A stretch of DNA of 64,000 nucleotides from Bdellovibrionales bacterium. Its GTDB lineage: Bacteria > Bdellovibrionota > UBA1018. The stretch's first letter is position 1. Every line of letters begins with the position of its first letter. The notes below the pieces were generated by a model. That model ran no database searches. It worked only from the letters and a program-made list of their open reading frames with translations, and was not told where the DNA came from. Positions 1,870 to 4,952 of the stretch are shown in pieces. The position numbers and the translations under genes were made by a program. The stretch covers positions 1-64,000 of the forward strand of contig JAEUWC010000015.1 in assembly GCA_016786465.1 (NCBI GenBank), in the 5' to 3' direction.

Positions 1870-2922
1870 TTACAGCTTATACTTCGTGCGCTGAGACTGG
1901 ATCATGCGGTTCACATCCAGGAATTCAGGCTGGCCCTGTTGATTCAGGAATTCGCAAAACACGTCTTTGTAGACGGCTTCGAAGTTATTCAAAGCAGCAC
2001 CGGCGGCAACGCGGTCGCCTTGCGAACCTTTGGCCAACGCGGTCTTAAATTCTTTCCAGAATCGATCTTGGTCATCCATCATGGTTTGGCTGCACTTGTT
2101 CGTGCCAGGTTCGTAAGCCTGCGGATTGCCGGGTTGTGCGCCGGTTGCAGAAGTGGTTGGAATTTTTGACCGCATGTCTGCGATTTCAACGTTTGCAGTA
2201 ATGGACGTGAACTTACTGCCGGATTGCATGTCGCAAACGACGTCGCGGTACTTGGCTTCAAACTGGTCAACCGTGGTACGAGCCTGTGGCAGCTGTTGGG
2301 CTGCGACCTGGGCTAGCGATTGTTGGCGCGCCAGTGAAAGGTCGCTTGCAAAGACAGCGCTGCAAGTGCGGGTTCCTGGAATATAAGCGGCTGGGTTTCC
2401 TGTGACCGTCACGGTCGTGCCCGTTCCTGTGCCGGTGCCAGTCCCCGTTCCGGTTCCCGTGCCCGTACCAGTTCCAGTCCCGGTACCCGTGCCAGTGCCA
2501 GTGCCAGTGCCTGTGCCAGTGCCTGTGCCAGTGCCAGTGCCTGTGCCAGTGCCTGTTCCGGTACCCGTTCCTGTGCCAGTTCCCGTTCCGCCTGGGTTGT
2601 TTGGGCTGAAAGCGGCTTTCGCGCGTTGTGCAGTTTCACGAAGGCGGGCAGCTTCTGATTTCCCGTTCAAGGTTTCTTTTGCGCCGCCACGTTCGCGCGA
2701 CCCCAAGCACTCTTCGCCACCGAAACGCGCTTCGAAATTAGAAATGTTTTGCAGCACGCGATCTGCAGCAGCAGTGCTGGTGATGGTCTTTGTCGAAGAA
2801 CTCAGCTTCTGAATTTCAGTAGTGAATTCTGACGAGCAGTTTTTTGGGTCTTCTTTTCCGCAGCCCATCAGAGACAAGGAAAGGCCTACAACTGCCAAAC
2901 TAATTCCATTTTGAAGCTTCAT
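1870..2922 (-). CDS. Lipoprotein with a 29-fold Gly-Thr repeat
   Basis: A secreted lipoprotein of about 350 residues. I place the start at ATG 2922, which gives a clean type II signal peptide ending in the lipobox LSLMGC; the upstream TTG at 2940 would add six residues without adding signal-peptide features. After a helical, charged N-terminal part (to about residue 110) comes an uninterrupted Gly-Thr run, then two similar segments, each with a conserved Cys and Pro-Gly-Thr pattern ('NPAAYIPGTRTCSAVFASDL' and 'NPQAYEPGTNKCSQTMMDDQ'), so the C-terminal half is an internal duplication. No known family is recognised. The repeat probably acts as a flexible linker that holds the duplicated domain away from the membrane. 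Confidence 0.85.
   Translation of the reverse strand: MKLQNGISLAVVGLSLSLMGCGKEDPKNCSSEFTTEIQKLSSSTKTITSTAAADRVLQNISNFEARFGGEECLGSRERGGAKETLNGKSEAARLRETAQRAKAAFSPNNPGGTGTGTGTGTGTGTGTGTGTGTGTGTGTGTGTGTGTGTGTGTGTGTGTGTGTGTGTGTTVTVTGNPAAYIPGTRTCSAVFASDLSLARQQSLAQVAAQQLPQARTTVDQFEAKYRDVVCDMQSGSKFTSITANVEIADMRSKIPTTSATGAQPGNPQAYEPGTNKCSQTMMDDQDRFWKEFKTALAKGSQGDRVAAGAALNNFEAVYKDVFCEFLNQQGQPEFLDVNRMIQSQRTKYKL
2417..2590 (-). repeat. Hexanucleotide repeat coding for (Gly-Thr)29
   Basis: Twenty-nine consecutive 6-base units of form GTNCCN on the + strand, read on the minus strand as GGN-ACN (Gly-Thr). The third codon positions vary from unit to unit, while the encoded dipeptide never does, so the array is not a fresh slippage product. 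Part of it (about 2491-2560) is nearly uniform (GTGCCA/GTGCCT), suggesting more recent expansion there. Changes in copy number would stay in frame and only alter linker length. Confidence 0.97.
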
Positions 2923-3011
2923 GAGGGGTAGCCTTACCAAGGCTTATGACGCACTGCAAGGTGAAAACAAAGCTTGGGAATTGTCCGGTTTTGTCTTTTA
3001 ATATCGACAAG

Positions 3012-3425
3012 ATGGCAAAAGATGGGTTGAAGACAGGAAAAGAGTCCGTGGTCGACATGTTAAAGGTCATGGATCCTGGCGAGCGCGAGAAACTATTGGG
3101 GAATCTGGCGCAGAAGGACCCGATTCTGGCTGAAGAATTGTCGCGTCGGATGGAATCCATCGAAGACCTATTGAAAGTCGAAGGCCTGATTCTTCAGAAG
3201 TTTCTTCGCGAAGTCCCCGCCCAGCAATTGGCCTTGGCTATGCGAAAAGTTTCAGACGAATTGAAGGCTCATCTTTTTTCGCAGCTTTCGGAAAGAGCCC
3301 GCAAAACACTTCAAGAAGAAATCGACCAGCTTGGGCCGCAAAAGGTCAGCTCAATTCAACAGGCACAGGTCGATATTCGGGCACGTTTTGGGAAGTGGCT
3401 CAGATCTCAAGCCGAGACTTTGTGA
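3012..3425 (+). CDS. Solo FliG C-terminal-domain protein
   Basis: About 137 residues from ATG 3012; an alternative ATG at 2946 adds 22 residues that do not resemble FliG. From about residue 25 the protein follows the FliG C-terminal domain closely: 'DPILAEELSRRMESIEDLL', then 'REVPAQQLALAMRKVSDELK', then 'ERARKTLQEEIDQLGP'. In the flagellar motor this domain carries the charged torque helix that meets MotA. The FliG N and middle domains, which bind FliF and FliM, are absent, so this is not the switch protein itself. It could be a paralogous motor modulator or an unrelated use of the ARM-like fold. The gene ends one base before the acetyltransferase start, so the two are probably cotranscribed. 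Confidence 0.75.
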   Translation: MAKDGLKTGKESVVDMLKVMDPGEREKLLGNLAQKDPILAEELSRRMESIEDLLKVEGLILQKFLREVPAQQLALAMRKVSDELKAHLFSQLSERARKTLQEEIDQLGPQKVSSIQQAQVDIRARFGKWLRSQAETL

Positions 3426-3426
3426 C

Positions 3427-3948
3427 ATGCATTTTCGTCGCGCCACTTTAAACGATATTGAAACCGTGACCCGCCTTTATCGCGAAGTCGCAAGACGTTC
3501 GGGCGGTATTGCGCGGACTGAATCTGAAATCACCGAAAAGTACATCGGTGAATGGGCGCGTTCAAGTATTCAAACCGGATTCTGGATGGTCGCCGAAGTC
3601 GGCGGTAAAGTGATCGGATCCATCCATGCAATTCGTCCGGAAATCGAAATTTTCGCGCACATGCTGACTGCTTTGACGATTGTGATTGATCCGGATCATC
3701 AAGGTAAGCAGGTGGGAAGGGGACTTTTTTCCGCATTTTTAAGCGAAATCATAACGACCCGGCCCGACGTGTTTCGGATTGAACTATTTGCAAAAGAATC
3801 CAATCCCCGCGCGATCGCCTTTTACGAAACGCTGGGATTTCAGCGTGAAGGTCGATTTGTCAATCGCGTGCAAAGGCGTGATGCGAACGGAATTCAAAGC
3901 TTTGTTTCGGACACGCCAATGGCTTGGCTTCGTGCGCCGGGTCACTAG
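3427..3948 (+). CDS. GNAT-family N-acetyltransferase
   Basis: A 173-residue GNAT acetyltransferase with a single domain. ATG 3427, one base after the preceding stop, is chosen because the fold begins at 'MHFRRATLNDIETVTRLYRE', the usual first strand and helix of GNAT proteins. The acetyl-CoA-binding motif A is seen in 'IVIDPDHQGKQVGRGLFSAF' (Q/R-x-x-G-x-G/A type) and the late 'NPRAIAFYETLGFQREGRF' motif is intact. The substrate is unknown. It lies in a likely operon with the FliG-C gene upstream and the desaturase gene 45 bases downstream. Confidence 0.9.
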   Translation: MHFRRATLNDIETVTRLYREVARRSGGIARTESEITEKYIGEWARSSIQTGFWMVAEVGGKVIGSIHAIRPEIEIFAHMLTALTIVIDPDHQGKQVGRGLFSAFLSEIITTRPDVFRIELFAKESNPRAIAFYETLGFQREGRFVNRVQRRDANGIQSFVSDTPMAWLRAPGH

Positions 3949-3992
3949 ATTCGGCTTCTTCAATCGTCAAAGGATACCGAACAGGAAGTCGG

Positions 3993-4952
3993 ATGGACGT
4001 ACCAAAAGACTTCACGGTGGTCTCAAATCCGGACTTACATCGGGAACGTGCGCGCGCATTGGTTGCGGCGCACCCTGAATTGAAAAACTTGATGGGCACG
4101 GACCCTTGGCCCGCCGCGATTATTTTTTTGTTGGTCGCTGCGCAAACCGCAGTCGCGATCGCTTTTGAAGTCTATGACGTCAGTGGGTACTGGATTCTTT
4201 TGACGGCTGTTTTTGTGGGTTCAGTCTTTAACCATTGGCTGGCGATGGGGGTTCATGAATCGTCCCATCAGCTGATCTTTAAAGGATTTGCCGCAAGCCG
4301 CTGGCTTGCAATCTTCGCAAACATGCCCGTGATTGTTCCCGGGGCAATGACCTTTTTTCGCTGGCATATGGATCATCACATCTATTTGGGCCGCGAAAAG
4401 CTGGACAACGATCTACCTTCAAATGCTGAAGCGGACATCGTCGGAAACTCGGGCTTCAAAAAAGCGATGTGGCTTTTCTTTTACCCGTTCTTTGGGACCC
4501 TGGCCCGAGGGTTCATGCGAAAGCCTGACTCGTGGGAATGGAAGAACATTGTTTGCGAAGTCATCTATGTGGGAACGATCGTCTACTTCTTCGGTTGGCT
4601 GCCGATTGGCTACCTTCTTTTATCCAGTTACATCGGTATGGGGCCGCATCCAGTGGCCGCACATTGGATTCACGAGCACTATACTTGGCGCCAGGGACAA
4701 GAAACTTATTCGTACTATGGCCCGCTGAATTGGGTGACCTTCAACGTGGGCTACCATTTTGAACACCATGACTTGATCATGATTCCCGCGAAAAATTTGC
4801 CTAAGGTTCGGAAGATCGCTCCTGAATTTTACGAAGGGAAGGACGGTCACCGTTCTTGGTCGCGAACGATGCTTCGATTCATTTTCGATAAAAGATTGTC
4901 GCACTACTCGCGTCTGGTTCGTCGTCCACAAACGATCGACCCAGGGACCTAA
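3993..4952 (+). CDS. Sphingolipid delta-4 desaturase-like membrane fatty acid desaturase (DES1 family)
   Basis: A 319-residue di-iron membrane desaturase. ATG 3993 follows an AGGA ribosome site at 3983 and yields the N-terminal segment typical of sphingolipid desaturases ('HRERARALVAAHPELKNLMG'). The three His boxes are HESSH (88-92), HMDHH (125-129) and HFEHH (255-259). The region around the third box is strikingly like eukaryotic DES1, which introduces the 4,5-trans double bond of sphingosine: 'GQETYSYYGPLNWVTFNVGY', then EHHD, then 'LPKVRKIAPEFY', and a C-terminal SHYSRLVRR. Ordinary bacterial acyl-lipid desaturases lack this block. I infer action on dihydroceramide or a related sphingoid lipid in the inner membrane. 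The 3' end overlaps the next gene by four bases on the opposite strand. Confidence 0.88.
   Translation: MDVPKDFTVVSNPDLHRERARALVAAHPELKNLMGTDPWPAAIIFLLVAAQTAVAIAFEVYDVSGYWILLTAVFVGSVFNHWLAMGVHESSHQLIFKGFAASRWLAIFANMPVIVPGAMTFFRWHMDHHIYLGREKLDNDLPSNAEADIVGNSGFKKAMWLFFYPFFGTLARGFMRKPDSWEWKNIVCEVIYVGTIVYFFGWLPIGYLLLSSYIGMGPHPVAAHWIHEHYTWRQGQETYSYYGPLNWVTFNVGYHFEHHDLIMIPAKNLPKVRKIAPEFYEGKDGHRSWSRTMLRFIFDKRLSHYSRLVRRPQTIDPGT

Follow-up and report, generated by a model that had tools for sequence, protein, structure and literature searches.

The 64,000-nucleotide stretch of Bdellovibrionales DNA analyzed here (the window) carries a gene whose product was described in a first-pass annotation as a homolog of DES1, the eukaryotic sphingolipid delta4-desaturase. 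This raises the question of whether a bacterium might place the same double bond in sphingoid bases of its own. Descriptions of bacterial sphingolipids generally give them saturated bases, and a search of the available literature turned up no paper on a bacterial delta4-desaturase. The gene and its surroundings carry the following features.

2946..3425, plus strand: gene for a FliG_C-domain protein (PF01706), first of a same-strand run, with no known link to lipid chemistry
3427..3948, plus strand: gene for a small GNAT acetyltransferase (PF13508/PF00583), directly upstream of the desaturase gene with a 44-bp gap
3983..3986, plus strand: Shine-Dalgarno-like AGGA, 6 nucleotides before the ATG at 3993, noted by reading the sequence
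3993..4952, plus strand: gene for a DES-family membrane desaturase of the His-type (P0001), 319 amino acids, over the curated cut-offs of PF08557 and PF00487
4005..4109, plus strand: N-terminal Lipid_DES domain, residues 5-39 (PF08557 match)
4254..4268, plus strand: histidine box 1, HESSH, residues 88-92; H88 and H92 invariant in a 17-row alignment and nearly invariant in a 59-row alignment
4365..4379, plus strand: histidine box 2, HMDHH, residues 125-129; H125, H128 and H129 invariant in both alignments
4647..4679, plus strand: HPVAAHWIHEH segment, residues 219-229, with the His/Arg marker residue 224 at 4662-4664
4755..4769, plus strand: histidine box 3, HFEHH, residues 255-259; H255, H258 and H259 invariant in both alignments

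The open reading frame at 3993-4952 begins with ATG, and its translation contains every motif that had been quoted for it, including LHRERARALVAAHPELKNLM, ETYSYYGPLNWVTFNVGYHFEHHD and LPKVRKIAPEFY and the block with ETYSYYGPLN and GYHxEHHD. Its likeness to DES proteins is not due to chance, as evident by Pfam scores of 31.6 bits for Lipid_DES (PF08557; cut-off 23, E 1.1e-7) and 71.3 bits for FA_desaturase (PF00487; E 1.4e-19, residues 66-283). The 17-row alignment comprises the window protein and 16 homologs from its own and related genomes, and all histidine-box residues are kept in 16 of these 16 homologs. A model generated by AlphaFold from this bacterial alignment (pLDDT 88.5, pTM 0.87) predicts a membrane di-iron fold, with structural matches to 8xks_K (Z 19.6) and AlkB (8f6t, Z 16.0), and to SCD1 (4ymk) at only Z 6.2. 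When a solved DES structure was sought by sequence, none was found. Given its Lipid_DES and FA_desaturase domains and the HX3H, HX2HH, HX2HH and EHY histidines, the protein is a DES-family membrane di-iron desaturase.

For comparison with the eukaryotic enzyme we used a provisional human DEGS1 sequence, written out rather than taken from a database record, that is the sole eukaryote in our comparisons and trees. This provisional sequence gives a full-length match of 74 bits to PF08557, and thus is credible, if not proved letter for letter. It is 39% identical to the window protein over 313 amino acids, end to end, and the HMDHH box is the same in both. Across the 59-row alignment, 44 near-invariant positions, the histidine boxes among them, are common to the bacterial and human sequences. 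The proposed homology to DES1 is upheld by these data, and the protein does not group with ordinary acyl-lipid desaturases, the placement that the annotation had named as a refutation: the ordinary desaturases of the host genome fall outside the DES group in our tree.

The same annotation regarded such proteins as rarely seen in bacteria, and this claim must be rejected. A scan of a genome collection confirmed at least 580 bacterial relatives, the best 80 of which come from Bacteroidota, Verrucomicrobiota, Myxococcota, Acidobacteriota and Bdellovibrionota, plus a record whose only label is Pseudomonadota. A relative is present in 61 of the 369 genomes of the window's own phylum, and the DES family is therefore not rare in bacteria. 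What is sparse is only the branch that holds the window protein. A careful maximum-likelihood tree (unrooted) splits the family in two with support of 100/99, giving 14 rows of a His-type, which include both the window protein and the provisional human sequence, and 28 rows of an Arg-type. The branches are marked by residue 224 (window numbering), which is His in all His-type rows, human included, and Arg in every one of the 49 remaining bacterial rows of the 59-row alignment; 79 distinct strings of this motif divide into 67 with Arg and 12 with His. The Arg-type is abundant, whereas few genomes hold the His-type. With a window-clade profile that was built with both the window and the G032 proteins included, only the window genome and G032 exceed 500 bits among the 369 phylum genomes. 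Mucilaginibacter flavus has genes of both types (L060 and L077). The host genome, which has 12 FA_desaturase matches in all, also carries one DES gene of each type, the second being as follows.

G000:C1:53792-54724; L026:1492-2517 and L040:9284-10312, plus strand (L026, L040): second DES-family gene, Arg-type, its product sharing 42% identity with the window protein

A sphingoid-base route likely exists in this host, as suggested by a serine palmitoyltransferase (SPT)-type enzyme whose gene clusters with those for an SDR and an FA2H-like hydroxylase at a separate locus.

L039:8171-14230 (G000:C20): sphingolipid-like cluster encoding a 561-amino-acid protein, an SDR, a TetR-like regulator, SPT, an FA2H-like hydroxylase and a methyltransferase

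The best solved match of the SPT-type enzyme is a Sphingobacterium-type SPT (E 5e-109), which supports a likely sphingolipid context for the desaturase. We count SPT as present in the host, with a score on the NCBIfam model SerpalmtaseCFB (467 bits) that is below the curated NCBI cut-off of 640; an SPT-like match occurs in 53 of 58 relatives. The 561-amino-acid protein has no Pfam match and looks like a C45/NTN hydrolase. Elsewhere in the genome, apart from the SPT cluster, is a GNAT of 379 amino acids that is 39% identical to a GNAT encoded inside a DES operon. Searches of the host genome showed PF04339, the Caulobacter-type bacterial ceramide synthase, to be absent, and did not find cytochrome b5.

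Operon links between DES and sphingolipid genes occur in other bacteria. In a Saprospiraceae locus (L063), genes for FA2H, SPT, GNAT, DES, an epimerase and PgpA overlap on one strand in this order, and the SPT scores 647 bits, over the curated NCBI cut-off. A Verrucomicrobia locus (L073) has the order DES, FA2H, alpha-oxoamine synthase, CDP-alcohol transferase, GNAT, CDP-alcohol transferase, with a synthase that is not assignable to SPT by NCBIfam. Ten Verrucomicrobia loci similar to L073 largely conserve this gene order, and their synthase likewise fits no curated SPT model. Parts of the same gene set occur in an acidobacterial locus (L103) and two from Bdellovibrionota (L102 and L163). In 15 of the 80 best loci (of at least 580), from four phyla, an SPT-like gene is found no more than 6 kb away from DES, an excess over chance that holds even when the 15 are reduced to five events. 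All of these DES loci with sphingolipid operon genes or a nearby SPT-like gene are of the Arg-type.

The window gene itself has neighbors that are not lipid genes, as judged from their Pfam matches. The GNAT gene immediately upstream is possibly co-transcribed with it, and no homolog of this GNAT was found near other DES genes. The FliG_C-domain protein stands alone, with no flagellar genes visible in the stretch read; on the minus strand at 1870-2940 is a lipoprotein-like open reading frame with a long Thr-Gly run (GT dinucleotides), the other strand of which would read as Pro-Val repeats. No His-type DES gene was found to adjoin SPT, and a search for a conserved neighborhood of this branch yielded none except the DES-PAP2 pair in G032.

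L041:2009-2743 and 2631-3584, minus strand for both: overlap between a PAP2_3 gene and the 3′ end of the His-type DES gene of G032

The PAP2_3 superfamily includes IPC synthases, and the product of the G032 gene is a candidate ceramide head-group transferase.

Taken together, these data lead us to favor the reading that the window gene probably encodes a bacterial sphingoid-base C4 desaturase, which would give a 4-ene base as does eukaryotic DES1. This reading draws on the demonstrated family membership, the intact histidine set, the di-iron fold, the SPT/SDR/FA2H-like cluster of the host and the operon linkage of other DES members. It is weakened by the fact that the operon evidence is all Arg-type, by the non-lipid neighbors of the window gene, by a host SPT below cut-off, by the DES-carrying genomes that lack a clear SPT, and by the failure to find PF04339 or cytochrome b5. 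The predicted enzyme would act on a sphingoid base, presumably as dihydroceramide or free sphinganine, by removing two hydrogens at C4-C5, and would leave a 4E double bond rather than a C4 hydroxyl. N-acylation may be carried out by the 379-amino-acid GNAT related to that of the DES operons, and electrons would come from a donor other than cytochrome b5.

The outcome of the reaction could nevertheless differ, as the same family includes DEGS2, a sphingolipid delta4-desaturase/C4-monooxygenase (PMC13161914). A sphingoid-base C4-hydroxylase, or a bifunctional, DES2-like desaturase/hydroxylase, would make phytoceramide-type lipids, and the two outcomes are not separable by sequence alone; the two DES-type enzymes of the host, which belong to different branches, could even divide the desaturase and hydroxylase work between them. 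However, no positive evidence speaks for hydroxylation, and members of the DES family more commonly carry out plain delta4 desaturation. We consider a hydroxylating enzyme unlikely.

The desaturase or hydroxylase chemistry of this fold might alternatively be directed at another substrate, such as a sulfonolipid base, an acyl lipid or, as for GntB, an amino acid. The L-arginine gamma-hydroxylase GntB (NF041365) is in fact the nearest NCBIfam model to the window protein, but the match is partial (residues 29-154 only) and its 28.1 bits are far under the cut-off of 380. The acyl-lipid delta5 desaturase model DesA (NF052548) yields 15.2 bits against a cut-off of 500. In addition, 20 of 38 DES-carrying genomes are without a clear SPT (score below 430 bits), which indicates that some DES members may act on other lipids, and the window neighborhood is no lipid cluster. 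The association of DES with SPT in Bacteroidota depends on the threshold. At the loose one (SPT-like matches of 430 or more bits) there is no significant link (18 of 22 DES-positive genomes versus 279 of 373 others, p 0.32), whereas curated-level SPT, at the strict DES threshold, occurs in 7 of 22 DES-positive versus 10 of 373 other genomes (p 8e-6, with kinship ignored). This last association, the PF08557 match, the end-to-end identity to the provisional DES1 sequence and the SPT cluster of the host all argue for a sphingoid substrate, and we judge an enzyme for some other substrate to be quite improbable.

The placement of the protein within the His-type branch also bears on its origin. Its clade (support 99/97) holds seven other bacterial proteins, namely L010 from the same family, L057, L062, two from Aureispira and two from Mucilaginibacter. 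In the maximum-likelihood tree the sister clade comprises human DES1, a protein encoded on L139 and L189 and four Bacteroidota proteins, so that the human enzyme sits among bacterial ones. The L139/L189 protein (L189:9157-10212, genome G216, Bdellovibrionota) is 48-49% identical to the provisional human DEGS1 and is encoded on a contig whose genes look bacterial. The window gene has a GC content of 0.505, as compared to 0.511 ± 0.023 for the window's open reading frames, and its composition is thus native, with no compositional sign of transfer.

Origin by transfer from a eukaryote had been left open in the annotation. A recent gene capture of this kind by the bacterium is very unlikely: it could account for the His224 shared with human DES1 and lacking in Arg-type relatives, for the patchy occurrence above 500 bits, for the rejected grouping with the host's other DES as a close paralog (AU p 0.00015), and it agrees with a clade of window, human and L139 proteins that is not rejected (AU p 0.31), but the protein lies in a bacterial-only clade beside rather than within that of human DES1, is closer to its clade mates (42-47% identity) than to the provisional human sequence (38%), and is encoded by a native-looking gene with no intron. 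No DES relatives were found in viral contigs searched as a source of a virus-borne eukaryotic DES. A tree that separates human DES1 from the window clade and L139 is not rejected either (AU p 0.19). For the His-type branch as a whole, an older transfer across the divide between bacteria and eukaryotes, in either direction, is plausible. If anything, eukaryotic DES would appear to nest among bacterial DES proteins, as judged from one provisional, long-branched eukaryotic sequence. We entertain, as a tentative and rather doubtful scenario, that eukaryotic ceramide delta4-desaturase arose within the bacterial His-type branch, which would survive sparsely in Bdellovibrionota, Bacteroidota and the record labelled Pseudomonadota. 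The 4,5-unsaturated ceramide would then be a bacterial invention, and these bacteria would make eukaryote-type sphingosine ceramides today.

An uncultured Bdellovibrio-like bacterium thus possesses a true homolog of the enzyme responsible for the characteristic ceramide double bond in animals and plants. The two branches of the bacterial family offer direct candidates for testing whether bacteria make sphingosine-type ceramides, and both the operon-linked Arg-type and the sparse, human-containing His-type bear on the origin of eukaryotic ceramide desaturation.

Among known enzymes, DES1/DEGS1 (PF08557 and PF00487; EC 1.14.19.17) shares with the window protein the Lipid_DES domain, the three histidine boxes, the HPxxxHxxxEHY segment, ETYSYYGPLN, length and collinearity. 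The window enzyme differs in being bacterial, in lacking the human MGxxxS N-terminus, in its lower Lipid_DES score (31.6 versus 74 bits for the provisional human sequence) and in a host genome where cytochrome b5 was not found. The Arg-type bacterial proteins (such as L063 of Saprospiraceae, L073 of Verrucomicrobia and L026 of the host itself) are about 40% identical to it and have the same histidine set, but carry Arg for His at residue 224 and form a separate branch. Another Bdellovibrio-like organism, Bacteriovorax (Bdellovibrio) stolpii, has a characterized SPT and sphingophosphonolipids, and the available portion of the source describes no desaturase and claims no double bond for its lipid (PMC6148460). 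The myxobacterial FA2H orthologs set a precedent, being eukaryote-like di-iron enzymes that modify sphingolipids in bacteria (reviewed in PMC10002949, with reference to Ring et al., 2009). They belong to a different family (PF04116) and hydroxylate the fatty acid rather than the base, and the window's host also has an FA_hydroxylase gene beside its SPT.
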